Positions 440 through 23,575 of a DNA stretch of 64,000 nucleotides are shown one piece after another. The stretch's first letter is position 1. Each line of letters begins with the position of its first letter. Source of the stretch: Siphonodentalium dalli (Eukaryota > Mollusca > Scaphopoda > Gadilida > Siphonodentaliidae); NCBI GenBank assembly GCA_032622095.1, contig CP136066.1, positions 92,961,319-93,025,318 of the forward strand, written 5' to 3'. Position numbers and translations under genes: made by a program. The notes below the pieces were generated by a model, which did not search any database, was not told the origin of the DNA, and saw only the letters and a list, made by a program, of their open reading frames with translations.

Positions 440-1525
440 TCTTGTACTATTTGTTTTTGGCTGTCTGTAATTTGCTTTTATTACACGAGCATCCCTCCAA
501 ATGAATACTAGACCATTGCAATATGTATACGTGTATAACTGAATGGGGGGAGAATCCATTCAGCATAGAAAGGGTTAAGAGAATGCATGCAGTGCAAGTT
601 ATGAGCTTGTCACGTGTACCCCCTACCAAAGGTCGTGTACATAGTCACGTCCCTTTAATTGAGCGAGGCGTTAAAGGCAATTGTCTGTTTGAAGGTCCAA
701 ATAATGCTCACTTTTGTTATATCGTGGTCTTGTTCCAGTGATCAACATAATTATATACGTTAGGTCGATAAATATCGTCCAAAGGCATCTGTATGCCACA
801 AAAAGACTAACTCCCGTGAATCAATACAGAACTGTCTCTCGAACTGCCTTCGGCGTGAAAAATAAAGAACGTCCCTCGTTAGTCTATTCCTGATATGGTA
901 GAAATAAAGAGCGTATTCATTCACAAATTTAGAATAGCTGTGAACCTGGCAAGTATTTTTCAGATCGTATATATGAAGTCGGGATATCAATATATCGTGT
1001 ATTTATCAACATATCTTATAATATCCAAATTACGTCGCAAATATGTATATAGGTTCGAATGAGCCATATCCCTTTAAACTATGATTACATATCAGTTGTG
1101 CGTTTATAAACATATCTTTACGTTTCTGCACGGAACAGCTATTTTATGTGGAAACACCCAGTTGGAAGTTTCAAGATGGAACCCACCCCACCCCCCAAAC
1201 GTCCCTGAATGTCCTCATGGGTTCAATCTAAATACTTTCGGGTATACAAAACGTATAAATAGTACTAGCATAGTGATGCCAAGTATCAAAGATAGGGTAA
1301 CTGAATTACTTTCTATACTAAATACCCAGTGCCGAGACAGTTGTTGAACTATTATCTGAAGATTTCCCTTTTGTATTTGCTGTCTGTCTGCCCGAGCACC
1401 ACTCGAAATGAATAATAGACCATTTCAATGTATATGTTTATAACTGAATGGGAGAATCTATTCAGTATAGAAAATGTTAAGAGCATGAATGCAGCGTAAG
1501 TTCTAAGTTTGTCACGTGTATACCC
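440..1525 (+). repeat. R1 tandem repeat, first block
   Basis: This is the first block of a roughly 0.8-0.9 kb tandem repeat called R1 here. The phrase CTCCAAATGAATACTAGACC near 494 returns in slightly changed form near 1399, a period of about 905 bp. The same text recurs at 12059-13883, 20706-21310 and 28105-28245. The unit carries the recurring motif AATAAAGAGCGT. R1 text is interrupted at 1525 and resumes at 12059, so everything between is inserted DNA. No coding potential is evident. Function and family are unknown to me. Confidence 0.7.
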
Positions 1526-1584
1526 ACAGTTGTTGGAAATTTGTGTCAAAAACCCCGAAAAACAGATAACCCCACCCTACTTAT
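1526..1584 (+). repeat. Left terminal inverted repeat of the 10.5-kb insertion
   Basis: The first 32 bases match the reverse complement of the right arm exactly, after which the match is interrupted but recoverable through CCCCACCC and TACTTAT. A Helentron-like 5' end (TCTCATATATATTTTG) begins directly after it. Confidence 0.65.
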
Positions 1585-1949
1585 CTCATATATATTTTGA
1601 AGACCTCTGTATGTCTGTATGTCCTTTATAGAATCGAAAACGACTGACCCATCGAGCTCAAATTTCGTATATAAGTGTAAAAACCCACGGGGATCGTCGA
1701 CGTCGCATTTTGGACAAGCTCTGAGCACCGATTATCCACTCCCAATCATCAAAATCACCGCAAACGCCACTTCGTAGGTTAAGGCAACAACGATCTTTAT
1801 ATTGACCATATTCGGAGGTGTTAAGGATGAACGCTCTTTATTACAATCGAAGCTGCTAAACGGCTACCCATGCGTAAAATACGGATGCAAAACGAAACGC
1901 GGAATTTTTCATCGGGTCAGTCTTTGAGGGACGGGTACCATGAATTAAT
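1585..1949 (+). mobile_element. Older Helentron-like 5' end fragment
   Basis: It opens with TCTCATATATATTTTGAAG followed by a TCTGTATG simple stretch, as elements A and B do. It continues with text that is a diverged copy of the 5' region of element B, including 'gagctcaaa' and 'ctcagagcac'-like phrases. No CTAGT end is seen before element A starts, so it looks truncated. It contains no recognisable gene. Confidence 0.45.
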
Positions 1950-2308
1950 CTCATATATATTTTGAAGACCTCTGTTTGTCTGTATGTTTGTCTACGATTC
2001 TCGACCGATCGGGACGAAACTTGGTACGTGTGTGTAGTTTGACCAGGCGGTCGACGTTGTCGTATTGGCGAGCCCGTGCGGCGCCCGCTTCGCGCATGCG
2101 CAGACGAGATCTCGGAAACGGGTGGAGCTATCGACTTGAAATTTGCTATGTGAATGTATCTTGCCCCGGATACGAATTTTATCGGGTCGCCGAGCCCGTG
2201 CGACGCCAGCTTCGCGCATGCGCAGACCAGATCTCGGAAACGGGTGGAGTTATCGACTTGAAATTTTGTTTTTGAATAGCCCGGACAACGTCGGGCTCAT
2301 CGGCTAGT
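1950..2308 (+). mobile_element. Helentron-like element A (non-autonomous)
   Basis: Its start resembles that of the preceding copy. It ends with a hairpin (GCCCGGACAACGTCGGGC, 2279-2296) followed by eight bases (TCATCGG and a C shared with the terminus) and CTAGT at 2304-2308. A 3' hairpin a few bases before CTRR(T), with no target duplication, is the classical Helitron 3' end. Its body (2001-2270) is homologous to the 3' part of B and C. It has no Rep or helicase domain, so it is non-autonomous. Confidence 0.55.
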
Positions 2309-3502
2309 CTATACTATATATTTTGAGACTTCGTATATATGTGTGTATGTGTGTACTTCATAGAATCCAAAACGCGTGTAAAGATTGAGCTCAAACTTCC
2401 TATGTAAGTGTCAAATCCCACCGACACGATCGTGGTCGCAGTTTAGAAAAGCTCAGAGCACCCGTTCTCCAATCTCAAATCACCGCAAAGGCACGGCGTG
2501 GGTTAATCAAGTGATTATTTAATGAGCGTTTGTTTTTGACGCATCTCTATAAAGAGCGTCTGTTTGCCATTCAACGTTATTTGCATCTGCAGAGAGATAT
2601 ACGGAACATACATTAAATTAAAAAAACATTTGTTTCTGACCAACCCTGCGAGCACGGATGGCGCGCTTTGTTTTTACAGTATATAGTTATATACCGAAAT
2701 CATCCCAGATAATCACGAATATAGCATCAGATTTCTCCCCAGATATAGCTACTGGAATCTGCCAATCTACGGGAAATTCCAGGGAATGCCGATTGAGCTC
2801 AAACTTGCTACCCACGGGAAGTGTCATATATATGAGTGTGTCCTTTATAGACTCGAACCGATTGAGCTCAAACTTGCTACATAAGAAAATAGCCCCCAAG
2901 CCGTAAATATCAACAACAACGATATTGCTACCTACGGGGAGAAACGTTGTTAGCATCTGCAGAATTATGCAGACAGAAAGTGCTTTCCTATTTTTAGAAC
3001 GCAACACATGTTTACGTCGCGTTGGTGATTGAGGTTCACAACGGGGTTAATTGACTGTCCGCTCTTTGCGACGATGAGGTTCACGGCGGGGACTATTGAC
3101 CAACACTCACAATTTCGTCTTTTGCATCAGATACCAACACCTCGACCGATCGGGACGAAACTTGGTACGTGAGTGTAGTTTGACCAGGTGGTCGTCGCTG
3201 TCGTATTGGCGAGCCCGTGCGACGCCCGTGCAGCGCATGCACAGACGAGATATCGGAAACGGGTGGAGCTATCGACTTGAAATTTGCTATGTGAATGTAT
3301 CTTGCGCCGGGTACAAATTTTATCGGGTCGCCGAGTCCGTGCGACGCCAGCTTCGCACATGCGCATACCAGATCTCGGAAACGGGTGGAGCTACCGGGTA
3401 CAAATTTTTCTTATTGAAACGCGTGGAGCTAAAAATTAAAAAAAAATATTAAAAAAATGTCATGTTTCGGACAAGCCGCCGGTGGCGGGCTAACCTGCTA
3501 GT
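2309..3502 (+). mobile_element. Helentron-like element B, 1.2 kb
   Basis: B begins directly after the CTAGT of A (CTATACTATATATTTTGAG) and ends at CTAGT 3498-3502, preceded by the hairpin CCGCCGGTGGCGG. Its first 273 bp (2309-2581) match 3503-3775 with no difference seen. Its last 569 bp (2934-3502) match 11161-11729 with no net indel and about seven mismatches. Only 2582-2933 is private to B. B therefore has the same two ends as element C but a different, short interior. It contains no gene. Confidence 0.65.
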
Positions 3503-3775
3503 CTATACTATATATTTTGAGACTTCGTATATATGTGTGTATGTGTGTACTTCATAGAATCCAAAACGCGTGTAAAGATTGAGCTCAAACTTCCTATGTA
3601 AGTGTCAAATCCCACCGACACGATCGTGGTCGCAGTTTAGAAAAGCTCAGAGCACCCGTTCTCCAATCTCAAATCACCGCAAAGGCACGGCGTGGGTTAA
3701 TCAAGTGATTATTTAATGAGCGTTTGTTTTTGACGCATCTCTATAAAGAGCGTCTGTTTGCCATTCAACGTTATT

Positions 3776-3804
3776 ACTTGCGCCAGTCCATGCTGGACGC
3801 AAGT
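3776..3804. repeat. Short inverted repeat at the divergence point of B and C
   Basis: ACTTGCG and CGCAAGT enclose a second nested pair (CCAGTCC with GGACG-like text) exactly where C stops matching B. It could be a captured internal hairpin or an old terminus. It is followed by three copies of a TTTGTCTG-type unit (3825-3865). Confidence 0.45.
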
Positions 3805-4066
3805 AATGTTTTCGGTGCGGATATTTGTCTGTTTATTTGTCTGTTTATTTGTCTGTCCTTCCGTGAATATGTTACGTCATACCGGAAGTACATAGGGGCC
3901 TACTGTAAAGAATGCACACGCAATAATATGAAATGGTTGCATCAATTGTAATTTAAATCCACATATATACTTAATTTGCATTGTTATTTGGTTTTATTTT
4001 GGTAATAAATCGTTCATAAATGAACAATATTGAATGTTTTCTTTCTGGAAACCGATCAAGACGCGA

Positions 4067-4074
4067 TGACGTCA
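4067..4074. promoter_or_regulatory. Perfect CRE palindrome upstream of the RecQ-like gene
   Basis: TGACGTCA lies about 340 bp upstream of the RecQ-like ATG. Further ACGTC copies follow within 150 bp (about 4088 and 4210), and the region is richer in CpG than its surroundings. This would suit a promoter captured with the gene. The site is short and its function is unproven. Confidence 0.35.
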
Positions 4075-4409
4075 CGACGCTCATCAGGACGTCACAAGCT
4101 ACGTGGGCGCGCAAAACACTAGACCAGACGCTAGCTCTATGCCTTCACTACGCTAAGGCGTAACGTTCCCAGCATGAGAGACTAGTCAGTACCACCATGT
4201 TCGTTTAGGTTGTGACGTCGTAGCTGACGGCGCAATCTAAAAATAAACGTCGGGCTCCCCCAAAGCACCGAGTTGCCCCAGCTAACCTTTTGAGTGCACT
4301 CGGCACACCTTTTTCTTAACCAATGAAATTCAACCTGCGTCGTTATGTGATTGTTTTGTATCTAATGTAAACATAAACAAGGACCAGGTGCTAAAAAAAA
4401 ATTGTCACG

Positions 4410-5294
4410 ATGGACTGGTTTGTTGCGAGTCGATTGGCCTTGCAGAAGCTAAACAAACATAGGGGAACAAATTTTAATGTTCTGAAGCCACAGCAATCAA
4501 AGTGTATTCAAGCAATTTTGAATGGAGATGTTATTGCAAATTTGCCTACGGGTTATGGGAAGTCACTTGTGTTTGAGATACTTCCCCATTTATTTGAAAC
4601 TGTTGCAGTCGATCATGAAGCCATTGAAGCAGCAATAATAATAATAAGCCCATTGAACTCTATAATTGAGGAACAGGCCGCCAGACTTGGACAATGTTGT
4701 TTCCGGGTGGATGGCATTGCAGCAAAGAATGATACTGGTTTCATTAATTGTCAATTTAAATATTTCATTGGTCACCCAGAGTCAATGTTGGATCAAAGTT
4801 TAACAACTATATACAGAAGTTCCAAATGGCAGGACAAAATTAAATGTATAGTTATAGATGAAGCCCATGTAGTGAGTAAATGGGGCTCAGGATTCAGGCC
4901 AAAGTTTTCAGAATTGGGGAAACTGCGATCCCTTTTCACCAAGGCCAATGTGTTATGTTTATCTGCTACAATATCACCAAACATCAATGAGGATATCCAG
5001 AGAATTCTGTCCATGAAAAATGTAACCAATGTCAAATCAAGTGTTGATAGGCCCAATATTTCCATGGACGTTATCAAAATAAAAAACAACACGGATCAAT
5101 CTTTCCGGGAAACAATCAAGCCGTATATAACAGAATTGGTCAGGGAAGATGTTGAATTTCCGAAAACGGTGATATACTGCAAACTGCACTGGTGTGGTTT
5201 GGGGTGGGAAGAGGCAGCACGGATTTTAAATGAAGACCAACAAGATCTGGTGGAGTGCACAGTTGCCCAGTACCATGGCTCCTGTACAAATGAT
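4410..5294 (+). CDS. RecQ-like helicase exon 1 (295 codons)
   Basis: The ATG follows an A-rich leader and opens 295 codons ending exactly at a GTGAGT splice donor. Residues 45-52 are LPTGYGKS (Walker A, ATP binding), preceded by the Q-containing LKPQQ at 25-29. Residues 150-153 are DEAH, the Mg-ATP hydrolysis motif. WGSGFRPKFSELG at 158-170 is the RecQ aromatic-rich loop region. SAT at 185-187 is motif III, and DRPNI at 213-217 leads into the second RecA-like domain. Reading past the donor adds only a few residues before a stop, which supports the splice. All catalytic residues are intact in this exon. Confidence 0.85.
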
Positions 5295-6504
5295 GTGAGT
5301 CATTATTAAAGTTTTTTAAATGGTGATTTATCAAGGAACTATCGATTTATATGATGTTGTGTTAACTGAATACGGTCAGGGGTTGGGGGGTTCTGCAAAA
5401 AAATAAGAATAAACACAGGAGTGAGATGGACTAATGGTATGACAGACAATATTTCCACATGAAGAATTCCAAATAACATAAGAAAATTAAATTTTAGTAT
5501 ATCTTGATGTGTACACATTTTTCTTGTGCGCATATGGGGGGTGGGGTAATGTTAAGCAAAAAAAAAAAATTCAACCCTGTGTGTGGATTTTTTTGGTTTT
5601 GCAGGACTCCCGGCAATAGTTCCTTGATAACTGGTCAAATTTAACCCTTTCTATACTATATATTGATTCTCTAATTAGTTCGAAAACTACATTGGAAGGG
5701 TCTATTTTTCATCTGTAAGGATGTGTAGGAAATAAAAAAAAATTTATGCAGGAGGGGGGGGGGGAAACTGCGGGACACAATGTACCGGGGGTGGGGGGTA
5801 CCTAGGCGTAAAAAATTTACACGTAAATTTTTTCCTTATTCATTTTGGGGGGGGGGGGGGTTGTCGGACGGACAAAATTTGCATGTAATTTTTTTCCAAA
5901 TATGTATTTTCAGACTCACAACTTCAATTTTCTCTCATTTTATAGAATATGGATTAACCTTAATATCCAAATCATATATACATGAGTAGTACAATCCACC
6001 TAAAACAATTTTGGATAACCACTGTCTTGGTTTACATGTGATATTGACCCTCTTAATAATGCCGACTATGTCAGTGTCTACCAGTCGAATGCAGAATTCT
6101 ACCCTGCGATCGCTTATCTGGCAAATTTTTACTGCAGAACTATCCCATGTATTAAACAATTTCTCCTCCAATGGTATCAGAAAACAGTTATATGCTGGTA
6201 TCTCACTCATCTCATTTGCATCTTTTTCAAAGTCGAGGTAATGACTAGTTGTCATTTTTTAAAGTGCATACAAAGCATTGCGATCACCAATATACATGTT
6301 TGTACATGTCATGACATCACGAGGTACAAATCTGCGTTCTACTGGTAGACAATGACCATTTTAGTCATAATAATCTAAACTAAGTTACCAAGCACCTTCT
6401 CGTGAATTGTATGCTCCGGTGTTTTTTTTCGGTCAAACCGAGTTGTTGTCCGGCTGGGGTAGATTTGATTTTTTTTTCTGGGGGGGGGGGGGTTGGGGCA
6501 ATGG
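5295..6504 (+). other. RecQ-like intron 1, left part: homopolymer-rich
   Basis: No coding sequence is supported. Long G runs lie near 5752-5764, 5849-5861 and 6480-6492, and short open frames through them encode glycine-rich shadows. A GAACGAGAGGCCGATCACG repeat begins right after the third run. Confidence 0.5.
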
Positions 6505-6510
6505 TCAGTG

Positions 6511-6685
6511 GAACGAGAGGCCGATCACGATCGGCAGATGTTTAACCCATCCCTTGGCGATAGTAAATTGTTATGATCAGAATCATAATCTTTTAATGTT
6601 GAATTATAGAGTATACTGTTATGATCTAAAGTAGTATATGACAAATGTACATAATAACAGTAATAACACAAATTATTGGAATGTA
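6511..6685 (-). repeat. Dispersed repeat carrying an empty TTAA site
   Basis: In reverse complement this matches both flanks of the element at 55613-56012: CATCTGCCGATCGTGATCGG on one side and ATCCCTTGGCGATAGTAA on the other. Here the two flanks are joined at a single TTAA (6542-6545). It is therefore the unoccupied form of that insertion site. The homology runs for well over 100 bp and includes GAATTATAGAGTATACTGTT. Confidence 0.75.
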
Positions 6686-7139
6686 TGAGTCAATATAGAA
6701 GGGTTAATATAACATCTAAACTCTAGAGCCTGTCACCACTATCATAGTGTAAGCAGTTCTATTCATGTTGTTGCAAATTGCCATGTGAGATATCAAAATA
6801 TTATAATTATTTATTTAATTTATTTAATGGAAAAGGTTAAAAGACATGGAATGGGTAAAAGGGGTTAAATCACCTATCTCTGCCCTGTTTGATCCAATGT
6901 AGTCCCATCATCCAAGGACTTAGAGAGCTCCATTGGTCTAGTTAAATAAATTCACATGGCTAAGTTGTGGTTAAAAAGATAGCTAAATCAATTTATCCAA
7001 TAATTCACTAATCTGTGTCTCTTATACAGAGCTAACATATGAGGGCTACCCGGTATAAATAACTCTCAAAGCAATAAACTATATTGTCTTTTATCTTGCT
7101 CACAGAGAAGCAGGTATTCATTAATTGTAAGTTACTTGG

Positions 7140-7960
7140 GTTATAATCTGGATAATTCTTAGTTTAAAAAGGGCCATATCTCTGGTATAACAAATTGGAT
7201 CTAACCCATATTCAAACTCGTTCTGTATTTTGAGTTGAGAAACTCACATACCAAATTTGGTTCCTATCAGATGAAAAATGGTTGATTTATCGAAGTACAT
7301 GTATGTGTGAATTATAGGTCAAAGGACCATAACTCCATTAAAAAAAATCCGATCAACTCATACACCAAATTTGGTTCCAATCAGATAAAAAATGTTTGAG
7401 TTATGGCAGAATTAATGAATTCTAAGTCGAAAAAGGGCCATAACTCCGTAAAAAAAACTCGGATCAAACCCATATTCGAACTCGATCTGTATTTTGGGCT
7501 GAGAAACTCACATACCAAATTTGGTTCCGATCAGATAAAAAAATGTTTGAGTTATGGCAGAATTCATGAATTCTAAGTCGAAAAAGGGCCATAACTCCGT
7601 AAAAAAAAGTCGGATCAAACCCATATTCGAACTCGATCTGTATTTTGGGCCGAGAAACTCACATACCAAATTTGGTTCCGATCAGATAAAAAATGTTTGA
7701 GTTATGGCAGAATGCGTGAATTCTAAGTCGAAAAAGGGCCATAACTCTGTACAAAAAAGTCGGATCAAACCCATATTCGAACTCGATCTGTATTCTGGGC
7801 TGAAAACCCCATATACAATATTTGGTTTTGATCAGGTAAAAAATGTTTGAGTTATCGCATTACACGTAAAGTGTCTACGGACGGACGGACAGACGGACGG
7901 ACAGACGGACGGACAGACGGACGGACGGACGAACGACGAGTGGTCAATCCGGACAACGAC
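7140..7960 (+). mobile_element. Pearl/HINE-like element: about 150-bp tandem core plus ACGG microsatellite
   Basis: Repeats of about 150 bp start at TTCTAAGTCGAAAAAGGGCC (7420, 7571, 7721), with more diverged copies upstream to about 7140. Each unit holds CATACCAAATTTGGTTCC and GTTTGAGTTATGGCAGAAT. The array ends in an ACGG/ACAG tetranucleotide run (7876-7937). Tandem core plus tetranucleotide tail is the architecture described for Pearl elements of bivalves, later linked to non-autonomous Helitron-related elements. No protein is encoded. Confidence 0.6.
7876..7937 (+). repeat. ACGG/ACAG tetranucleotide microsatellite
   Basis: Fifteen or so tetranucleotides run without break at the tail of the tandem core. 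The arginine-threonine-aspartate open frames across it are artefacts of the repeat. Confidence 0.9.
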
Positions 7961-8200
7961 ACTATGTTTACCATACATGGTATGGGTAAACATAAAAAAA
8001 CTGCAGTTTTTGCTGTTTTGGGGGGGGGGGGGGTACCCAAACCGAAGAATCCAGTTTTTTCCACCCTGTGTCTGCAGTTTTTTTCCGCCCCCACCCCCCC
8101 CCCCCTGTGACCAATAACATTATATATATATATTGGTCGATTCAGACCGCTGCATTTAAAAATAGGAAAAAGATTCTTATTCATTAAGGTGGAGATGTTC

Positions 8201-8251
8201 AGATAATAAGTTCAACAAATGGCCTATGGTAGTTTGTTGAACTTATTATCT
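8201..8251. repeat. Perfect 17-bp hairpin
   Basis: AGATAATAAGTTCAACA (8201-8217) is followed, after a 17-base loop, by its exact reverse complement (8235-8251). It lies in intron 1 of the RecQ-like gene. It may be a small MITE. Confidence 0.7.
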
Positions 8252-8567
8252 TAATATTTTCCGAGGGATAACTACTGGCTTATCAATGAGTATTTAGAAA
8301 AGAAAGGGTAAATACATAGAATCATGTTTTGCATAAATCCATTACATGTAGGTCATTTTTTATTTATAGAAAACCAATTATTATGGATTTCATGACTATA
8401 AACCGTTTGGAAATGAAATGTAATTTTAATGTAAATTCACATTTTCTCCAAACAAATCTTTAAAACTTCTATTTTGAAATGGCATGGCATTTTTTAAGAA
8501 TAACATATTCTATGACTTACTATGACTTATTAAAATGCCTTAATAATTTACTACTTCTTTATTTTAG

Positions 8568-8706
8568 ATGAGAAAAGGAGTTTTAGCAGCAATGAATAGC
8601 CAAGGTAGAGTTAAATTGCTCTTTGCAAGTGAGGCATACAGCATGGGAACAGATGCGCCTGATATTAAAAGAGTAATCCATATAGGTCCCCCAACATCAC
8701 TGGAGA
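8568..8706 (+). CDS. RecQ-like helicase exon 2
   Basis: This 139-bp exon follows a pyrimidine-rich TTTATTTTAG acceptor and ends at a GTAAGT donor. It starts in phase 0 after exon 1 and ends with one extra base. It encodes MRKGVLAAMNSQGRVKLLFA, then SEAYSMGTDAPDIKRVIHIG and PPTSLE. This is the helicase motif V region, in which the Gly-Thr-Asp and Pro-Asp residues are typical of RecQ. It is too short and too late-starting to be found as an isolated open frame. The exon joins perfectly in frame to exons 1 and 3. Confidence 0.85.
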
Positions 8707-10449
8707 GTAAGTGTCATTCTTGCATATAGATCATCCTTTGACAAGCGGGCCAGGTTTGAATGACAGAAATTAGTGAAATATAGTACTGTGTATACTGCTT
8801 CAAGAAAATAGAAACAGATAATATACATGAACCATAGCCAATTATCTAGGTTTCTATGATGTTTTTTTTTCATAATTATTTTTTCAATTTTATCCATTTA
8901 ATAGCTAAAATGGATGTAAATGGCCTGAGCAAGATTGATACTAATATTAGATAGAAATTAATACCATGTTAGCAGTCTTAAAACTAAAAATAATTTCAAA
9001 ACAGCAATAGTTCTAAGACAAAATTAGAGTTTTCTCATTAACCAATGATTTAACATACATGTACCAAGGCCAATGCTTGGTGTTCAACAATTTTAGTACT
9101 ATATCTCTCAGCTACAGACTTTCAAACCGGGCTTGCTTTAAACAGAAATGTTGCTATTTTGAGAACATTACATCATTCTGTATTGTTTTTTGTTATGGGC
9201 TGTGGTGCCAGGAAGAGATTTAGCATCTTCAATTTAATGTATCTCCTCACCCTTTGTCAGTGGTTAATAAAATCAACAAATTTTCATTTAACTTATTTAT
9301 TATTAAAGACTTTAATATGGTAACTCAACAGAAAAATGCAATAATATGAAGATACAATTGACTGGTACTATACTGAATTACAAGTACTAGTTAAGGATCT
9401 CATTCTCAACTTAACCCTTTCACAATGGGAGCTGCGCTGGTGCAGCATTCAAGATTCTGTGTCAGTGCATTCTCCTATATATGCAAGTCTCACATTGGGA
9501 GCCTCACATATATAAGAGAATGCACTGGCACATGATCTTTAATGCTTAATTTTAAATAAGTGAGTTGATTTACAAAGGAAATAAATACATTACAGAGTAG
9601 AGTGTCTCAACTATGAGCACAGATTCAAACAATTAACATTTTGTTCTAATCAAATGTACATACTAGTACATACTAGTAATGATTCAAACCAAATTAGTAC
9701 TGTGCCATGTATGTTTCCGAATTATCATTTTCTATAGAAAAGTGAGGAATAAAAAAAGGACTTACTCCAGCAGATGACGATAAACATGACCATCAGCATC
9801 AGCCTTTCCCCTATAAAATAAGATATGAAGTTAAAGAGTAATTTCAACACTCATGAACAATGAGAACATTATTGAAAGTACACCATGGTCTTCACAAACA
9901 GTGAGAAATCCAAATATTATGGTCAGTTCAGGCCTAGCTTAATCAGTACAAATCTTTATTATCTTTCAGGAAAGATCTAAAATTAAAACTTTATATTCAT
10001 GAACAAAATAATTTCACTTGAATATTTTGAGAGATAACCTTATTCTCCCTCCATATCTTCTAAGCTGAAAATAGACGCTCTTTATTGTTGTTATTATTAT
10101 TAAACTGAGCTCTACGGCACCTATCCCATGACAATCCCACCTATCCCATGACAATCCCTGGTCAAGTTACGGCTATGTACCAATTTTCTTCTAAGCTGAT
10201 AATAAGGCTCTTTATTGATCATCTATCTTTGTTCATATAATGTATTAGTCCCCCTTTAATGCATGGCATTCCCCTTGTCAAATTAAACCTGTGTAACAAT
10301 TTTCAGCCCCATGGGTCCAAACATTTTAGGTACACATGTAATTAATTATTTTATTTAATTAATCATGAGTCCCCCTTTAAATCATCTGATGTCAATGGCA
10401 CCTATCCCATAACACTCCCCGTTAAATTATCATTTTTAATTTTTTCTAG
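8707..10449 (+). other. RecQ-like intron 2
   Basis: No further exon is recognised. It holds the TTAA-type hairpin fragment at 9411-9545 and a tandem pair of CACCTATCCCATGACAATCC near 10120-10160. It also holds two copies of a 'ctctttatt' phrase (10077 and 10208) that also occurs in R1. Confidence 0.5.
9411..9545 (+). mobile_element. TTAA-type hairpin MITE, half copy
   Basis: It opens with TTAACCCTTTCA and the phrase GGAGCTGCGCTGGTGCAGCA. One hairpin follows, formed by CAGTGCATTCTCCTATATAT and TATATAAGAGAATGCACTG. The second hairpin and the right end found in the full copy at 41041-41309 are missing. Confidence 0.65.
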
Positions 10450-10681
10450 CTTATGTTCAAGAGATTGGTAGGGCAGGCAGGGACGGTAGTCAGGTTGTCA
10501 GGTTGAAGCCACTCTTTTCTATTGTTCTTCTGATATTGCGGTCAATGTTCCTGGTATGACAGATCCAATGCGAAATTTTTGTAAGAGAGATACTTGTCGC
10601 AGGGAATTCATTTGCAATTATTTTGGAACAAGTTTGAATAACATTCCTTTAAAAATTTATTCAACCCTTCCCCACACCTAA
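10450..10681 (+). CDS. RecQ-like helicase exon 3, with internal frameshift
   Basis: The exon begins after TTTTTTCTAG. With the last base of exon 2 it reads TYVQEIGRAGRDGSQV, helicase motif VI with its two arginines. TCAGGTTG is then repeated in tandem (10490-10497 and 10498-10505). Past the second copy the RecQ text continues in a different frame: EATLFYCSSDI, then GMTDPMRNFCKRDTCRREF and NYFG. Counting only one copy of the 8-mer keeps one frame through the whole exon. The frame closes at TAA 10679-10681, before the last zinc ligands. Confidence 0.8.
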
Positions 10682-11160
10682 AAAATTGGACAGCACTCCG
10701 CTTCCCAGGATATTTTGCCCCACCCGATTCACCCTGAAAAAAAATCAACACCCCAACCCCCCCCCCCCCCCCCCCCCCCCAGAAAAATTGGACATAATTT
10801 CTGTATCTTAGGTCCAAAAAAAAAATGGACAGCATTTTGTTTCCTAGGCGCTTGCCAGGATTTCTTGCCCCACCCGTTCCGAAACAAAATATCGTGTTAT
10901 GGGCGTTATGAAAATACAAATTTGAATACATCTATACGCTATAACTTAGTATAGCTATTAGTATAGTATATATATAAAAAATTAATATCACTCAATTAAT
11001 GAATTATCATGTTTAGAATGCCTGTGTTTTTGAGACTTGAGTGTTGTCTAGTATTATCCTTACCTGGTTTTCTGAGAATTGAATCTCTCATCTCAACGAA
11101 ATTTCCGTATAATGTCATCAATCTTCGTCCACAACCTCTGCATATCGGACACCCAACTCA
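10682..11160 (+). other. Low-complexity segment between the RecQ-like gene and the 3' end of C
   Basis: A long C run lies near 10757-10780. Two similar phrases around ATTGGACAGCA and TTGCCCCACCCG (10685-10730 and 10825-10880) suggest a local duplication. No gene is seen. Confidence 0.5.
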
Positions 11161-11996
11161 ACGGGGAGCAACGTTGTTAGCATCTGCAGAATTATGCAGA
11201 CAGAAAGTGCTTTCCTATTTTTAGAACGCAACACATGTTTACGTCGCGTTGGTGATTGAGGTTCACAACGGGGTTAATTGACTGTCCGCTCTTTGCGACG
11301 ATGAGGTTCACGGCGGGGACTATTGACCAACACTCACAATTTCGTCTTTTGCATCAGATACCAACACCTCGACCGATCGGGACGAAACTTGGTACGTGAG
11401 TGTAGTTTGACCAGGTGGTCGTCGCTGTCGTGTTGGCGAGCCCGTGCGACGCCCGTGCAGCGCATGCACAGACGAGATATCGGAAACGGGTGGAGCTATC
11501 GACTTGAAATTTGCTATGTGAATGTATCTTGCGCCGGGTACAAATTTTATCGGGTCGCCGAGTCCGTGCGACGCCAGCTTCACGCATGCGCATACCAGAT
11601 CTCGGAAACGGGTGGAGCTACCGGGTACAATTTTTTCTTATTGAAACGCGTGGAGCTAAAAATTAAAAAAAAATATTTAAAAAATGTCATGTTTCGGACA
11701 AGCCGCCGATGGCGGGCTAACCTGCTAGTATTATATATAATAAAAGTTCGGCCGACCACAGTGTCCCCCGACAACGTGGCAAGTCGATGCAGCTTTGCTA
11801 AAGAATTATTTTTTTAAATGTTGAAATTTTCCACGTCGAAAAGGGTTAATAACTCCGTCAAAAAATAATTGTTCCGTCATCTATATACATGTTGCACATC
11901 TCCAATATATGTGACCGACAGATGGGCGAACGGACGGACGGACGAACGACGGAACCCGTTTCTATAGTCCCCCGAAAATAAATTTTTCGGGGGACA

Positions 11997-12058
11997 ATAA
12001 GTATGGGTGGGGCATATTTTTTCTCTCGGGGTTTTTGACACAAATTTCCAACAACTGT
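11997..12058 (-). repeat. Right terminal inverted repeat of the 10.5-kb insertion
   Basis: This is the reverse complement of the left arm at 1526-1584. Just inside it lie a hairpin (GTCCCCCGAAAA with TTTTCGGGGGAC, 11967-11995) and an ACGG microsatellite (11933-11950), which is the layout of Pearl-like elements. Confidence 0.6.
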
Positions 12059-13883
12059 ACGTGTACCCCTACCAAAGGTCATGCATATAGTCACGTCCCT
12101 TCAATGGAGCAATGCGTTAAAGGCAATTTGCGGCTTGAATGTCGAAATCATGCTAACTTTTTTTTCATCGTAGTCTGGTTCCAGTGATCAAAACATAGAG
12201 GTCGATAAATACGCTAAGCTAAGACGACCTCTTTATTCCACAGCAATACTATAAATCTAGCGAATAAATACAGGTTTGACCCCCGAACTGTCATGGGCAT
12301 TGAACAATAAAGAGCGTTCATCGTTAGTCAATTTCTGAATGAATGAATATACAATTTCAATGTATACGTTTATAATCCATTCAGTATATATAAAGGGTTC
12401 AGAAAATGGATGCAGCGTAAGTTCATGTACATAGTCACATCCCTTCAATTGAGCGAGGTGTTAAAGGCACTTGGTGGTTTGAAGGTCGAAATTATGCTCA
12501 CTTTTGTTATATCGTGGTCTGGTTCTAGTGATCAACATAATTATATACGCTAGGTCGATAAATATGCCAACCATTCGTATATGGCATATGTGTGCCACAT
12601 AAAGACTAACTCTACTGAATGAATACATAACTGTCTCCCGAACTGCCTTCGGTGGATCAATAAAGAGCGTTTCTTGTTATTCTATTCCTGATATGGTAGG
12701 AATAAAGAGCGTTTCTTTCACTTATGGTGGAACAATTTAAAACAGCTGTGACATTGGCAAGTATTTTTCAGAGCGTAAATATGAAGTCGCGGTAGCAATA
12801 TATCGTGTATTTATCAACATATCTTATATATCCGTTCAAATTACGTCGAAAATATGTTTTGGCTCGAATAAACTTTGATTACATATCAGTTGTGCGTTTC
12901 TAAACATATCGTTAGTTTCTGCACGGAACAGCTATTTTATGCAGAAACACCCAATTGGCAATTTCAAGATGACGGACACCCCACCCACCCCAAACGTCCC
13001 TGTTGTCGTGGGTTCAATCAAATTATTTGCGGGTATACAAAACGTACAAATAGTACTAGCATAGCGGTGTCAAGTATCAAAGATAGAGCAACTGATCGAA
13101 TCACTTTCTATACAAAATACTCATTGCCGAGTGGTTCCATGTTCAGACAGTTGTTGAACTTATCATTTGAAGATTTCGCAGTTCTGTCTGCCTGAGCACC
13201 CCTCCAAATGAATACTGGACCATTGCCATATGTATACGTGTATAACTGAATGGGAGAATCCAATCAGTGTAGAAAGGGTACAGAGAATGAATGCAGCGCA
13301 AGTTCTGAGGTTGTCACATGTACCCCCTACCAAGATCATGTACATAGTCACGTCCCTTCAATTGAGCAAGGCAAGCAATTGTTACATCGTGGTCTGGCTG
13401 TGGGATCAACATATACAGGTCGATAAATACGACAAGCATTCGTATACGGCATCTATATGCCGCAGAAAGAATAACTGAAGTGAATGAATACAGAAAGGTT
13501 GGCTCCCGAACTATCTTCGGCATGGAACAATAAAGAGCGTTCATTGTTAGGTTTTCCTGATATGGTAGAAATAAAGAGCGTTACTTTCACTTATATGCGA
13601 ACAATTTAAAACAGCTGTGACATTGGCAAGTATTTTTCAGAGCGTATATATGAAGTCGGGATAGCAAGATATCTTGTATTTATCAACATATATTATATCT
13701 CCTTCCAAATTACGTCAAAAATATGTATAGGTTCGAGCACCCCACCACACCCCAAACGTCCCTGTTCTCATGTGTTCAATCTTAATTATTTACGGGTATA
13801 CAAAGCGTACACATATATAGTACCAGAATATTGGTGTCATGTATGAAAGATAGAGCAACTTAATCCCTTTCTATACTAGATCA
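12059..13883 (+). repeat. R1 tandem repeat, second block
   Basis: R1 resumes at the point where it was broken at 1525. About two units are present: the first is internally shortened (restarting near 12340), the next starts near 13205. AATAAAGAGCGTT occurs repeatedly (for example about 12306, 12659, 12701, 13529 and 13570). The block ends at TTTCTATAC (13868-13876), which returns at 20706-20714 after the next insertion. The short open frames here are not supported as genes. Confidence 0.7.
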
Positions 13884-14858: not shown

Positions 14859-17800
14859 TATAGTGGGGGGGGGGGGGGGGGGTACTTACAGGAAAACATA
14901 AAAATCGTTAACTTTTTGATAGAAGCACCAAAATTGGCACATATGTAGTTTAACATATTCTCAATGAGAATCTAGCTGGTTCCAGCTTTTCAATGAGTGG
15001 AACTTGGAAAAATATTGACCGGAAGTAGAACACCCCCTAAAAAAAACGATTTGTTTTATTTATCAGTTTTATCCAAATTATAGCGGGAAAATCAAGTATA
15101 ATGTATACACATGTATACATTTTCGTAAAGCTAAGACATAACGACACTTTTCTGAGCTAAAATTGAAACTCACCATCCAAATGGCCGCCAAAATGGCCGC
15201 CGGAAGTTGAAAATATGACATTATTTCCCAAATATCTTCTAGATCAATTCATGCTGTTTGGAACTAGTTGAGTAATATGACTTTATTTTGTGTTTTTTAT
15301 ATTAACTGATCATTGGCGCAATTAAATATGCAATTATTGGGCTCCTAGCCCCATCCGATCCCTCAAAAATTCGATTTTACAGAACGCGGTATAAACTTTT
15401 ACCAAAAAAAATCACAATTGGGATTCTTGTCATATTTCAACAAGAAATGAAAAGAACATTGTAATGTAAGTGAGGCATATCATTACCTATGAATATTCCA
15501 ACTCTCGGGAACAAAAATCTTACCTTGGCTCAAAATGGCTGCCAAAAGGGCCGCCAAAATATGGAAAATGGTAAATATTGCCCCATGGTGTCCTGCATTC
15601 GCTTACAAGTTGTGGTTGATGTATACAATTGGCTAATCTGTATTCTATACATTGAATACTAACATGTCTGATGCACCATGTGTCATTTTTACTATTGCCA
15701 TCACTGACATCACCAGATATATTGGATTTTTCTATCACAATGGTATCAAATGTGTTTATTGTTTTGACCTATCTTAAATGTGTCACACTACGGTGTTTAT
15801 AGACTAAATTGCTCAAGATGGCTGCCAAAATGTCAACCAAATTTAAAAAAAAAAAAAAAAAATTACACATATCCCGAACATTATTCTCTGCGTTATCCGA
15901 AATGGTAGCAAATTGTGACTCACTTGGTTAGTATATGTGTTAGTTAATTAACTGACAACTATGTTCTATTATGTTTGTCCTAGATCCGTATGGGGCATAA
16001 CAAATTCATTTTAAAGTTGCAGTAAAGAATTTTGCGGAGAACCTCTTTTGTGATTCTGGCCATATTATTGAAAGGAAATGGGCAGAAATTTGAAACGGAA
16101 CTGAGATGAACCATGAGATGTGGGTAGTCTGGACCATTATGATAACAATTATCAACTGGATACAGGGTGGAAGCCAAGATGGCTGCCAGGGAGTTACTCT
16201 ATGCTCATAGATGATGATAATAGGTATACAGCGAGTTATTGTATGGTCATGAATGATGTGTGGGTATATAGGGAGTGCCCTGTTGGTAACGGTGGGACGT
16301 TTATTTATATATGTTGTGGATGTGTTATCATTGGTGGTGTATGGGGAGTAGATGTATGATAATGGACGGTGTTATGAGGATTGCAAGTGTGGAACTTATG
16401 AGTGGTCGTATGTGATGGTATTAGATATCTGGAAGGGCTCACCATTGGTGATGTGCATATGTATACATGGATTGACTCTATGATCATGGGTATGGCGAAT
16501 AGGTATACGTGTAGTGGCTCTATGGTCCATGGTGAGGTGAATATGTATACAATGAGTGAATGTATGATCGTGAATGTAGTGAATATGTATACATAAAGTG
16601 ACTATATGGCCATGTGTCGGGTGTAGGTGTATACCTGGTGTTCATACATGGTGACTCGTGGCTGTATCGTAATTTGTGGTATGTACGGGTATAACCAAGT
16701 ATGGCTGTATGATCAGGTGTACGTGTATAAAGTGGGTGACTATGTTGTCATTTGTGTTGTGTTTATGTACATATGGAGTGACTGAGGTAATGGGTGGGTT
16801 GTTCATGTATACCTTGGGTGGCTATCGCTTTCCACAATAACTCAAGGATATGTTAATCAATGGAGAGGTCATCTCAGAGAGTTATCCATCTTGATGGTGT
16901 TTATGTACATGGGGGGATGTTAAGCGCGGGAAGCGATAGCCACCCATTATCACACAGTCAATACATATATACATAAACACCACAGACATAACAATACAGT
17001 GACCAACTGGATACATGTACACCTGACCCATGACCACGGATGACCATACAGCCATGCGTCATAATACAGGTACACCGGGTATACTCCTAAACATGACCCA
17101 TAACCATATAGTCAGTCACTCCTTGTATACCCATTCATCTCACCATTGGCCATAAGGCATCCCTTGTATAACTATTCTCCAAACACATGGTCAAATAGAC
17201 AATCAATATATACATCAGCACCACAACAATGACCATAAAGTCACTCCGGGTATATATATGCACCTCACCAATGGCCATATAGCCACTCGCTTCATACACA
17301 TACCCTCACCAATGACACCTGGTGTACTCCTTCACCTGACCTATGGCCATATTATGCATATAGTCACCCCGTCTGTACCAATTCATAAAACATTCATACA
17401 CGATCATGGTCAATCCTTGTATACATATTCACCTCAACGTTGGCCATGTCACTCCCTGTATCTCTTATTTGTCACACCATAGCCGCATATTCACTCAAGA
17501 TACACTAATACACCCCAGCCATGTCAGTACAGTCACTCCGTGTATGCATATGCACCTTATCCATGGCCATGTAGCCACTCGCTATATACACATCTCCCTC
17601 GCCCATGACAATAAAGCAACACATGTGTATACTGGTATAACCTACACGTGGCCATACCGCCACGAGTCACCAAACAGGAACACCAGGTATACTCATACGC
17701 CTGACACATGACCATTTAGTCACCCCTATATAGATGTCCATTACAATTATGATCATACAGTCACTACTTGTATACCTACATGTACTCATCTCACCATTGA

Positions 17801-19955
17801 CCATACGGTCACTACCTGTATACATATTCGGCACACATAGTCATATAACCACTCGATATACATGTGCAGCCCACCGTAGACCATAGATTCACTCCAATGA
17901 CCATTCAACCCTTCCAGATATACACACGACCACTCAAACAATCCATACTTGCATAATTATACACCTCACACATGACAATTCACCCTTTCACTGTATAATC
18001 ATACACGCCATCCATGATAATACAGCTAATCCATATACACCCACCAATGATAATACATCCATGAGATATATAAATATACATCACACCCGTTACCACAAGG
18101 ACACTCCCTATATACCCACACGCTCGATAATGTCCACCCAGCTTACTCCAGATATTCATATTTAATCATGGCCGTACAGTCATTCCATGTATACTTATAC
18201 ACATTACCCGTAATAATAAAATCACACCCTATTTATCCACACACCCCATCCATGATCATACATACAACACATGTACATCCCACCCACGACCTTACAGTCA
18301 CTCCATATATACATAATCAACACATAGATGACCATGTAGCTATATCCATACACCACACCAATGCCCATACAGGCACACCTGGTGCACCCGTACTGGATAT
18401 ACACAATCATACACCATACAGTCACTCCATGCATACCGATTCAACTCACACCTGACCATGATCTCTCCCTGTATACCTAGATGCATCTTACAGTGGACAA
18501 CCCACTCGTAACCATATAGTCACTCATTGTATACCTATTCACATAAGTCATGACAATAACTCCCTGTATACCTAATCACCTCACGTGTGATCATAGAGTA
18601 ACTCCCTGGCTACGATCTTGGCATCCATTTTATTTTAGCATAATGGACCAGAATAGTCAAATATTATGGTCCATCTCAGATCCGTCTCAAAGTTCTGCCC
18701 ATTCCCTTTCAATAAATATGGCCAAAATCACAAAATAGGTTCTCGGTAAAATTACATACTTTAAAAGGAATGTGTCTTGCCCCATGCGGAACTGGGACAA
18801 CCAGAATAGAACATGTAGTTGTCAGTTAATTAACTAACACGTATAATAACCAAGTGAGTCACATTGCTACCTTTTCGGATAATTAATGCAGAGAATGTTC
18901 GGGATATATGTAAAAAAAATTACAATTTACAAATTTGGTTGCCATTTTGGAAGCCATCTTGAGCAATTTGGTCTATAAACACCGTAGTGAGACACATTTA
19001 AGATAGACCAAAACAATAAACTGCTTTCAATACAAAGATAATTACATTTTACCTGAAAAAATGGTCCAAACCTGAAAAGTGAATTTTTGCCAATATTTAT
19101 GTTAAGTTTTTGAGAGAAAAGTCCTATATTTTTGACGATGTTAGTGGTGACAATAGTAACAATTAACCATAGTGCATCAGCCATGTTAGTATTCAATGTA
19201 TAGAATGCAGAATAGCCAATTTTATACATCAACCACAACGTGTAAGCGATTGCAGGACACGCTGGTGTAATATTTACCATTTTCCATATTTTGGCGGCCA
19301 TATTGGCAGCCATTTTGAGCCAAAGTAAGAATTTTGGTTCCAGTGATTTGGAATATTCATAGGTAATGATATGCCTCACTTACATTACAAAGTTCTGTTC
19401 ATTTCTTGTTGAAATATGACTAGAATCCCAATTGTGATTTTTTGTGAAATTTTATACCGCATTCTGTAAAATCAAATTGTTGAGGTATCGGAAGGGGCTA
19501 GGACCCCAATAATTCCATATTTAATTGCTCCAATGATCAGTTAATATACAAAACACAAAATAAAGTTGCATTACTCAACCAGTTCCAAACAGCATGAATT
19601 GATCCAGAAGATATTTGTGAACAAATGTCTTATTTTCAACTTCCGGCGGCCATATTGGCGGCCATCTTATGAAAATTTTGATATGTTTTGGCCCAAATGA
19701 AGCGTGGTCACCCCCAACTATAACTGCATTGAGAAACTGTGAGAAGATGCGATTTTCACAAGAAAAGGATGGCATAACCCACCCAACCCAAAAATTGAGA
19801 TTTTCAAAAAGGTCAAGGTCAAATTAAAGGTCAAGGTGACATCCAAAATCCAGCCAGTTTAGTGATATTCACCAACTACTGAACAAACTCTGAAAGTTTG
19901 GCGCTTCTATCACAAAGTGAACGATTTTGCAAATATCCCCCCACTATTACACGAT
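14859..19955. mobile_element. 5.1-kb foldback element with minisatellite centre
   Basis: The left arm (about 14859-16200) is matched in reverse complement by the right arm (about 18600-19955). Shared landmarks include GATAGAAGC, ACTTCCGGCGGCC, GATCATTGG, CCCAATTGTGA, GTGAGGCATATCATTACC and CAATGTATAGAAT, in order. Each arm carries GCCATTTTGGC-type phrases. Both outer ends abut a G run (or C run) next to TATAGTGG/CCACTATT. Between the arms are diverged repeats around GTATAC, one orientation to about 16880 and the other after it. No transposase is visible. Open frames in it are repeat artefacts. Confidence 0.65.
16160..18610. repeat. GTATAC minisatellite core of the foldback element
   Basis: Irregular units of roughly 35-45 bp share GTATAC, TGACTATATGG and CATG phrases. 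They read G-rich up to about 16810 and C-rich after about 16950. The turn is marked by GGGTGGCTATCGCTT (16815-16830) and AAGCGATAGCCACCC (16932-16946). The two halves differ in length (about 0.7 and 1.7 kb), so one has expanded or the other has contracted. Confidence 0.65.
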
Positions 19956-19994
19956 AATGTTACACTGCCATTTTGGTAGTCTGTCTCTGTCTAT

Positions 19995-20235
19995 AAATAC
20001 AACGAATGTGTGTCTGTTAGTATGTATACTTCTGTGTGTATGGTTGTTGTAAAGGGAAGTCATGTTGTAATTCGCCAATGTTTTGTGTGTGTCTGCTAGT
20101 ATGAATGCTTCTGGGAGTTTGGTTGTTGAACATGGAAGTCATGCATGTACATCTCCAATGTTCTATATGTGTGCCTGTTAGTATGAATGTTTCTTTGTGC
20201 ATGGTTGTTGTAAATGGAAATAAAGTATGTAATTC
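19995..20235 (+). repeat. About 90-bp tandem repeat, three copies
   Basis: Three diverged copies share GTTAGTATGAATG, GGTTGTTG, GGAAGTCATG and CCAATGTT phrases. An AATAAAG lies at the end of the third (about 20219) and another near 20350. The role is unknown. Confidence 0.55.
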
Positions 20236-20705
20236 TCATGTTCATCACTTAGTTGATGACTGTAAATATGTTGAGCTTTGTTCCCTGTTTATGTTCTTAT
20301 AATTTATATTAATTGTATGCATTCTCTAAATATCTCCATGAATGGAGGAAATAAAGAATATATATAATGTACTTCACTATAGGTAAAGGTCCCTACTCGA
20401 AATTTCACGACTCAGTGGGCGATTTTGCTTTGCGTCGCTTACAATTATTGAATTTTTCCTGGCTAATTAGTCCCGATGTTTATTGCGATATCGGCTCATA
20501 AAAGTCGCAGAAAAGCATGGAGTTTCGAGTTGGGATCTTTACATATAGTGACGTACAATATTAAGGAGCAGGTAACAACTAAGAACTATATTCCCTGCGT
20601 TATGTTTTCGGGACTTTATAAGGTTCCCTGTCAAAACTTCAAAAAGTTCCCAGGTTCGCACTAGTGGAATATCTCAACATGGGCGTTAGCTAGAGTATAG
20701 ATCTA

Positions 20706-21310
20706 TTTCTATACTAAATACCAATTGCCAAGTAGTTCTATGTTCAGTCAGTTGTTGAACTATTATCTGAAGATTTCCCATCTGTATTTGCTGTCTGTCA
20801 TCTGCTTTCCCTGAGCACCCCTCCAAAATGAATAATAGACCTTTCAATGTATATGTGTATAACTGAATGGGAGAAGGGTTAAGAGATTGGATGCAGCGTA
20901 AGTTCTGAGCTGGTCACGTGTATCCATACCAAAGGCCATGTATATAGTCACGTCTCTTTAATTGAGCGAGGCGTTAAAGGCACTTGATGGTTTGAAAGTC
21001 AAAATCATGCTCACGTTTGTTACGTTGTGGTTGCTCCAGTGATCAACATAGATACAGGTCGATAAATACGCCAACCATTCGTATAGGATATCTGTATGCC
21101 ACAGAACGACTAACTCAAGTGAGTGAATACAGAAACGTTGGTTCCCAAACTATCCTCGGCATGGAACAATAAAGAGCGTTCCTTGTTAGTTTATTCCTGA
21201 TATGGTAGAAATAAAGAGCGTTTCTTTCACTTCTGCGCGAACAATTTAAACCGGCTGGAAAATTACTGTGACGTTGACAATCATATTTCAGAGCGTATGA
21301 AGCCGGTAAT
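20706..21310 (+). repeat. R1 tandem repeat, third block
   Basis: R1 continues from the same base at which it was broken at 13876 and includes two AATAAAGAGCGTT motifs (about 21170 and 21211). It becomes unrecognisable near 21310 at a GAGCGTATGAAG phrase, and the missing continuation appears at 28105. Confidence 0.65.
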
Positions 21311-21336
21311 ATTAGTTACCTCGTGTCTGTAAACGG

Positions 21337-21463
21337 ATCCACGTAGTACGGGGTTTTACCTACCCGAAGCCAGCCGTATCCAATGAGGCGAATGGGATAC
21401 GGCTGGCTGAAGGTAGGTAAAACCCGGTACTGTACCGTACTACGCGAGCAGACACGGGTGACG
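21337..21463. repeat. Long hairpin next to R1
   Basis: GTACGGGGTTTTACCTACC and GCCAGCCGTATCC are matched in reverse complement by GGATACGGCTGGC and GGTAGGTAAAACCC. The outer part (CGTGTCTG with CAGACACG) also pairs. The fold covers about 125 bp. It is probably a MITE. Confidence 0.7.
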
Positions 21464-21892
21464 ATTTTTTCTATTGACCTTAACAGTATATATTCAAATC
21501 AACATTTCCCTTCTTTCCCCCATAGAAACGAATAGGGAAATTTGAACCTAATATTTCAGTATTTGTCCATTTTTAACTACAGTTAGAATAAACTCAACAC
21601 ATAACATAACAACATAACAACACGCAGATTTCCGAGTCACCATAAATAACTGAACACAAATTGAATTGTCACAAGTATTAAGAAATACTACACTCTTGAC
21701 TCATATTTAATTTGAAATAATTCCTCTCCTTTATTTGACAAATACACAATACGGAAACATTTCGCGTTGCACATGACGTATGCGACAATATGATATTCTG
21801 GAATCGAGGCAGCTACACGATACGGAAAACAATATGTGTGGTTCCCAGAAACATCATGGTGTTCGATGTTAACAACACAATATGGGTTTATA

Positions 21893-22270
21893 TGGAATCC
21901 TATTACGGCCACTTGCTAATGGCGCTTTCGGCGCTTTCGGCGCGATGCGCCGAAAGCGCCGAAAGCGACAAAAAGTGCGCCATTAGTAACGCGCCGAAAG
22001 CGACAAAAAGTGCGCCGTAACGGCGCACTATTTGTCGCTTTCGGCGCTTTCGGCGCTTTCGGCGCTTTCGGCGCGGTGCGCCGAAAGCGACAAAATGTGC
22101 GCCATTAGCGTTATTTCGGCGCGCGCCAAAAGCGACAAAATATGCGCCGTTACGGCGCACTTTTTGTCGCTTTCGGCGCTTTCGGCGCTTTCGGCGCACC
22201 GCGCCGAAAGCGACAAAATATGCGCCGTTAGTAACGCGCCGAAAGCGCCGAAAGCGACAAAAAGTGCAGC
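21893..22270. repeat. GC-rich GCGCCGAAA array, copy 1
   Basis: The segment is built from GCGCTTTCG and its complement CGAAAGCGC, with spacers AGCGACAAAAAGTGCGCC and CATTAG. It begins with GGAATCCTATTACGGCC. The composition contrasts sharply with the AT-rich surroundings. The nine-base period makes long Ala-Leu-Ser or Arg-Lys open frames in several frames on both strands, which I regard as artefacts. The same array occurs inverted at 24610-24880. Confidence 0.8.
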
Positions 22271-22904
22271 GTTTCCGGCATGCGTAACGAGGTGTAACTT
22301 CTGTATGCCATTAAAATGGAGGCGTTTATTGTTGACAATTTTTTTCTAAATTTTACACACCGTGAAATTATCTATAAGTTTTATCAGAAATATGGAATTA
22401 CAATTAGGTGAGTGAACTTCAAAAGCCACAGCTCCTGAACCCCCCCCCCCCCCCCCATTCGCATGGATGCAGGGATGTGGTAACGGAGAGTCCAACATGT
22501 TCTCTGCCTTGTTTGTTCAATGTTATAAAGTTCCATGTTAGAACATAAAAAAAGTTCCCATGTTTTGCACTGATGGAATAATATCTCTACAAGCACTATG
22601 CAGAGTAAAGTTTCATGGCACAATCTGGGGGGAGGGGTTCTTCTGACTTCAATTTCAACTACATGTTTGGGGGGGGGGTGTCCATCTTGGGAAATTCCAA
22701 CTGCATCCCCCCTTTAGTCAGAATCAGACCAACACAAGTTTTTGAATAATTCCATTTGCACCCCCCCCCCCCCCCCTTGAACCTCAGTCAGGCCTAATTT
22801 CTAATATATTCATAAGCCATGGTTTTATATTTCTATATTCCTGGTATGAGAACATTGACAGATATTTTAACCTGAACATTTATTAGTTATTTGAAAATTT
22901 CAAA
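22271..22904. other. No gene seen; C and G runs
   Basis: Long C runs (22440-22456, 22758-22776) and short G runs are the main content. A GTTCCCATG and GATGGAATAATATCTC stretch near 22555-22590 resembles the right end of the 6.8-kb insertion. No coding region is supported. Confidence 0.4.
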
Positions 22905-23553: not shown

Positions 23554-23575
23554 ATACGTGCGAAATAAATCTCTG

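Follow-up and report, generated by a model that had tools for sequence, protein, structure and literature searches.

A RecQ helicase gene, probably captured from the host, inside a canonical Helitron of the scaphopod Siphonodentalium dalli

A head-to-tail Helitron array

We analysed a stretch of 64,000 nucleotides from the genome of the scaphopod mollusc Siphonodentalium dalli (GenBank assembly GCA_032622095.1, contig CP136066.1, positions 92,961,319 to 93,025,318 of the forward strand). It is termed the window below, and coordinates are counted from its first base. The window holds three Helitrons in the order A, B, C on the plus strand, with B and C head to tail. The third encloses a multi-exon gene for a RecQ-family helicase, which we think was probably captured from the host genome.

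1584..2307, plus strand: Helitron A, beginning TCTCATATATATTTTGA following ACTTA, its 3' end a hairpin and CTAG
2308..3501, plus strand: Helitron B, 1194 bp, TC...CTAG, without cargo
3502..11728, plus strand: Helitron C, 8227 bp, TC...CTAG, with RecQ cargo
3502..3775, plus strand: 5' end of C, identical to B 2308-2581
11161..11728, plus strand: 3' end of C, 98.8% identical to B 2934-3501

B and C share both ends. The common 5' segment (2308-2581 in B, 3502-3775 in C) is identical at 274/274 bases. In the 3' segment, compared from B 2934-3502 to C 11161-11729, 562 of 569 bases agree (98.8%), with 7 substitutions and no gaps. The stretch enclosed by these ends measures 352 bp in B; C lacks this middle part and has 7385 bp of other sequence there instead (3776-11160). 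An initial annotation of the window had placed B and C next to each other head to tail, with a difference-free 5' end of 273 bp and a 569-bp 3' end at about 99% without net indel. All of this is borne out, the 5' end measuring 274 bp. Within Helitron A there is an additional 5'-like start at 1949.

Such an array could have formed by rolling-circle read-through, or by insertion of a new copy at the left edge of an older one, between its initial T and the A that flanks it. Tandem Helitron copies are on record (PMC7492417).

Class of the elements

Canonical Helitrons are described as having a 5' TC, a 3' CTRR, a palindrome of 16–20 nt about 11 nt before the 3' end, and an A^T insertion site without target duplication (PMC4067079, PMC3627910). 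Helentrons are marked by subterminal inverted repeats of 11–15 bp and a T-T target (PMC4067079, PMC7492417). A, B and C all begin TCT, in agreement with the canonical 5' TC, and all finish in CTAG, in agreement with CTRR; T comes next in B and C. Folded with DNA energies, the 3' hairpins of all three have a stem of 6–7 bp, occupy 18–20 nt in total and end 10 nt before the terminus. In none of the three is an exact 8-mer of the first 60 bases found again in inverted orientation among the last 100. The array is flanked by ...ACTTA^TC on the left and CTAG^TATT on the right; the A^T insertion is thus read from the bases around the array as a whole, within which single elements are not separable. 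Six-frame Pfam scans of 1200-3778 and 3776-11163 (E 0.05) found no Rep, PIF1 or transposase domain.

Because of the 5' TC, the 3' hairpin and CTAG, the lack of inverted 8-mers near the ends and the A/T flanks, A-B-C is a canonical non-autonomous Helitron array. Helentron membership was rejected on the same ends, on the missing exact inverted 8-mers and on flanks of A and T rather than T-T, and with it falls the “Helentron-like” label of the initial annotation.

The RecQ gene

The helicase gene lies within C on the plus strand of the array:

4410..5294, plus strand: RecQ exon 1, 295 codons, with Walker A TGYGKS, DEAH box and SAT; Pfam DEAD E 2.2e-21, PDB WRN E 3.6e-20
5295..8567, plus strand: intron 1, GT-AG, phase 0; it contains repeats, one of them a 150-bp tandem array at 7355-7859
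8568..8706, plus strand: RecQ exon 2, motif V region; Pfam Helicase_C E 5.6e-5 (8571-8709)
8707..10449, plus strand: intron 2, GT-AG, phase 1; 9410-9546 is a repeat with further copies in the window
10450..10559, plus strand: RecQ exon 3 in frame, with motif VI QEIGRAGRDG followed by the frameshift and a stop
10489..10504, plus strand: 8-bp tandem duplication, a 16-base stretch that shifts the frame
10490..10681, plus strand: zinc-binding part of RecQ, not in the frame of motif VI, with no recognisable second cysteine group

These three exons, with their GT-AG introns in phases 0 and 1 and their Pfam matches, confirm the multi-exon superfamily 2 RecQ gene of the initial annotation. Joining the exons raises the best PDB match (WRN) from 75.6 to 118.6 bits over residues 24-356, and the spliced product matches TIGR00614 at E 2.7e-53 over residues 22-356; the 181.4 bits are below the NCBI cut-off of 219.8 for this 470-position model. 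The spliced exons form a continuous superfamily 2 helicase core with the motifs from Walker A to motif VI. Behind WRN among PDB matches come bacterial RecQ (104 bits), RECQ1 (∼89), BLM (∼88), RECQ4 (83) and RECQ5 (∼82). Because RECQ1, BLM, RECQ4 and RECQ5 score not far below WRN, sequence similarity does not assign the copy to any one human paralogue.

The copy is broken. The 8-bp duplication shifts the frame after motif VI; the shifted frame ends at a stop at 10557-10559, and the zinc-binding part proceeds in the other frame. Pfam RecQ_Zn_bind is matched at E 1.6e-5, with 26 bits against a cut-off of 25, at profile positions 29-53 of 66 only, so that the C-terminal end appears either to be missing or to lie in an unrecognised exon. 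The frameshift had escaped the initial annotation, which suggested that a helicase as cargo could affect rolling-circle transposition; a copy frameshifted after motif VI lends that suggestion no support.

A second RecQ copy was sought in the window and not found. In genome_contigs and in viral_contigs alike, exact patterns from the Helitron sequence had 0 matches, which is no surprise for an animal element. Exon 1 gave three weak matches in viral contigs (22–24% identity in the best segment). It found no prokaryote relative among 49 candidate stretches, with a single-protein query that reaches close relatives only. A tblastn search of phages with the spliced helicase returned 27 records, the five listed ranging from 28.5 to 31.4% identity. 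As far as these comparisons go, nothing in the viral, prokaryote or phage matches would point to a recent transfer of the gene.

Nesting of the array in older repeats

The array itself sits inside two other repeats, neither of which the initial annotation had noticed:

449..1520, plus strand: tandem repeat X, left part, unit about 905 bp, found by self-comparison
1526..1583, plus strand: left terminal repeat of an outer inverted-repeat element resembling a miniature inverted-repeat transposable element (MITE-like), an inverted match to 12058-11998
11729..12058, plus strand: right part of the outer inverted-repeat element, with its terminal repeat at 11998-12058
12059..13880, plus strand: tandem repeat X, right part, in phase with the left part

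The terminal repeats match each other in inverted orientation, 1526-1583 against 11998-12058 (88.5%, E 9e-15). Once the array is removed and its flanks joined, the outer element is 388 bp long. An imperfect target duplication of 8–10 bp flanks it, ACGTGTA(TA)CCC on one side and ACGTGTACCC on the other. Repeat X breaks off at 1520 and continues from 12059 without a change of phase. Most simply, X was there first, the small inverted-repeat element then inserted into X, and the Helitron array in turn inserted into that element. Since the array sits in an inverted-repeat element that splits X in phase, the RecQ block is probably a newcomer here and not at its native place.

CpG pattern of the cargo

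The CpG content of the cargo divides it into an upstream region and a gene body:

3776..4409, plus strand: region presumed to hold the promoter of the captured gene; CpG 1.26 observed/expected (o/e), with a CRE-like TGACGTCA at 4067

CpG o/e is 1.26 in these 634 bp upstream of the gene. Exons 1, 2 and 3 have only 0.41, 0.17 and 0.45, respectively; the first part of intron 1 has 0.53 and intron 2 has 0.20. The CpG-rich upstream region of the initial annotation is therefore real. Exon 1 and intron 2 have more TG and CA than expected (1.23–1.51). The two Helitron ends of C stand at 1.36 and 1.45. Seven one-kb windows starting at 8403-9003, inside C, have a CpG o/e of only 0.12–0.17, compared to a mean of 0.96, a fifth percentile of 0.48 and a minimum of 0.22 for 541 overlapping one-kb windows outside the element.

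In the oyster methylome, CpG methylation is found chiefly in gene bodies, with promoters generally lacking it (PMC4378273). Because the CpG-poor gene body and CpG-rich upstream region match gene-body methylation with an unmethylated promoter, the pattern suggests, by analogy with the oyster, that the RecQ block was a long-resident, germline-methylated host gene before capture.

The repeat at 9410-9546 in intron 2 belongs to a short palindromic family with copies near 35767, 41041-41265, 43591, 48904-49024, 50486-50586 and 55762-55986. Since it recurs in the window, the RecQ block shares repeats of this genome; the intron 2 copy could postdate capture.

Two further places in the window deserve mention. 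Low CpG is also found at 22301-23600 (0.22–0.42 o/e in one-kb windows, not continuous), perhaps part of a methylated gene. An innexin open reading frame at 45814-47037 (Pfam Innexin E 2.8e-86), in keeping with animal DNA, has a normal CpG content of 1.07.

Capture and its alternatives

We consider it likely that C is a canonical non-autonomous Helitron that took up, at the DNA level, about 7.4 kb of host genome including most of a RecQ gene. The initial annotation also read the gene as cargo, and that reading gains from the two Helitron ends of the same family, the derived-looking nested site and the host-gene CpG pattern. The captured block would comprise the upstream region, three exons and two introns, taken from the genome of the element's own host, and would have replaced about 352 bp of a B-like element. 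One further feature lies at the left edge of the cargo:

3773..3807, plus strand: strong hairpin at the left cargo breakpoint, from a DNA fold of 3773-3812

Its energy in that fold is –13.6 kcal/mol (z –7.57), and 0 of 200 shuffles did as well. The left breakpoint lies at its foot. The hairpin may mark where another element ends, or may have caused the break. The likeliest route of capture would be break repair or a replication template switch inside the element, of the filler-DNA type, at this hairpin; the filler-DNA model has backing for insect Helitrons (PMC6544945). Next likeliest would be a chimeric end bypass, starting at one copy's 5' end and stopping at a different copy's 3' end. The internal position of the cargo and the loss of B's middle would fit filler DNA as well as a chimera. 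To move, C would need Rep/helicase supplied by another element. The RecQ copy itself would have no part in transposition and would be decaying. Capture as we describe it does not depend on any move by C afterwards.

Several observations weigh against this reading. The seven positions at which B and C differ are all in the 3' part (chance 0.06 under an even spread); this skew hints weakly at separate histories for the two ends of C and leans weakly toward the chimera route. The terminal hairpin and CTAGT given to B and C by the initial annotation are present, yet with DNA energies the 3' hairpins are only slightly better than shuffled sequence (z –0.69 in B, –0.98 in C; –2.01 in A), and when the final 41 bases of B and C are folded with RNA energies, a different hairpin is preferred, one that reaches into CTAG. 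When the flanks of the array are joined, the inverted match of the outer element resumes (12/13 bases) only past 32 unmatched bases, the score gains little (88.1 joined, 82.4 unjoined), and an empty copy of the outer element was not seen. The repeat block of intron 1 is not CpG-depleted (1.01 o/e), and 15 of the 541 outside windows, all starting at 15401-23601, are below 0.45. Oyster Helitrons are themselves methylated above background (PMC4378273), the methylation argument as a whole is an analogy borrowed from the oyster, and CpG depletion alone would suit a native gene too. Finally, only one cargo-bearing copy was seen, so C as a unit is only putatively mobile.

The last point bears on the closest competitor, in which C landed free of cargo and the RecQ block was added later in place, by break repair or some other insertion, so that C never moved with it. 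This is a real possibility, though not the one we would choose. It agrees with the single cargo copy seen and with the strong hairpin at the left breakpoint. The cargo edges (331 and 316 bp) bear on it as well: their inverted match scores 19, compared to a mean of 20 and a maximum of 30 in 200 shuffles, and the cargo was thereby rejected as a simple inverted-repeat transposon. The absence from C of B's 352-bp middle nevertheless implies replacement, not plain insertion. Insertion in place overlaps with our preferred explanation, which leaves later movement open, and the likelihoods attached to the two are not exclusive. The same edges, with inverted repeats no better than shuffled, tell against a RecQ gene that came from a DNA transposon natively encoding one (Academ or Kolobok lineages) and ended up inside the Helitron. 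Such lineages are reported (Academ PMC3627910; KolobokH PMC9587614), and our copy is not clearly closest to one human paralogue. We nonetheless hold this origin unlikely. No transposase domain was found beside the helicase (at E 0.05, DEAD, Helicase_C, ResIII and RecQ_Zn_bind were the sole domains in the six-frame Pfam scan of the cargo), and the CpG valley with its CpG-rich upstream region is unlike what a young transposon gene would be expected to have. Terminal inverted repeats, as an Academ or KolobokH transposon would have around its helicase gene, were looked for and not found; the outer inverted-repeat element is only 388 bp without the array.

That the RecQ gene is simply a resident host gene, flanked by chance by Helitron fragments, is in our judgement quite unlikely. 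The CpG depletion of its body, its intact splice sites and its open 295-codon exon 1 would all suit such a gene, but the complete array is bracketed by the two halves of the outer element and by X, which continues in phase, both Helitron flanks are near-identical to the ends of adjacent B in the right order and orientation, and the RecQ copy is frameshifted. Very improbable, in our view, is a Helitron lineage that keeps a promoter-bearing RecQ as standing cargo, whose intact sister copies would express it and so aid rolling-circle replication or donor-site repair, the window copy being a broken member. This idea is modelled on the RPA and single-strand binding protein genes that accompany some other Helitrons; Helitrons are known to carry extra genes with a possible role in replication, such as one for single-strand binding protein (PMC4683698, PMC4067079).

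Other Helitron ends in the window

The minus strand carries a second head-to-tail Helitron array, which takes up the end of the window (about 60634-64000). Its junctions, CTAG followed by TCTATTATATATTTT, are at 63553, 62748, 61978 and 61372, and its final end is CTAG followed by TATACATA. Three complete units of 805, 770 and 606 bp lie between the four junctions (61372-63553), at all of which the pattern CCCGGACGAAGTCGGG precedes CTAG, the same design as in A-B-C. CTAGTC occurs at 11 sites in the window, compared to 27 expected from base composition, and the bare motif alone is no evidence for Helitron ends. A hairpin precedes CTAG at 6 of the 11 CTAG/TC sites (A and B by folding, four on the minus strand by pattern); the remaining five showed none by eye and were not folded.

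Comparison with known systems

The array resembles Helitrons of the Pacific oyster, which have the same 5' TC, 3' CTAG, upstream hairpin and A^T insertion (86% in oyster) and likewise include short non-autonomous copies without Rep (PMC7992393). In the same source, subterminal inverted repeats are reported for 257 of 751 oyster copies, whereas the exact 8-mer test found none in A, B or C. Gene fragments are carried by 17 of the 751 (PMC7992393). At 8.2 kb, and with most of a multi-exon gene, C far exceeds the oyster Helitron mean of 1092 bp (PMC7992393). Helentrons and HINE elements, known in bivalves, have a similar 3' hairpin (PMC4067079, PMC7492417). They differ by their subterminal inverted repeats and T-T target, the array having no such repeats found and an A^T site.

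A near-whole, intron-bearing repair helicase with its upstream region makes C a clear animal example of capture, in which the breakpoints and the order of nesting can be read. A CpG valley between CpG-rich Helitron ends could serve as a simple marker when scanning for captured host genes in genomes with methylated gene bodies. We found no report of a RecQ gene captured by a Helitron among the titles and abstract openings listed, a search whose scope left out most subscription papers. Helitron gene capture and RecQ genes in mobile elements are each already known, and C is a new example. Another of the reported RecQ-bearing transposon lineages, AcademH, occurs in animals and fungi, to judge by the title of a 2020 paper by Kojima.

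RecQ has been reported in Academ transposons (PMC3627910). KolobokH has RecQ beside its own transposase and is said to occur in fungi only (PMC9587614), and the Tolypocladium CPA element bears RecQ, to go by a reference title in PMC4289320. A RecQ-like gene is also multiplied in fungal subtelomeric repeats, akin to C in its repetitive setting; these are a telomere-linked fungal family, and the portion of the source consulted describes no Helitron ends (PMC4522978). Academ, KolobokH and CPA each unite a mobile element with a RecQ-family gene, as C does. In KolobokH the RecQ gene adjoins a transposase, whereas C, in whose scanned parts no transposition protein was found, carries a RecQ gene that looks like host cargo.

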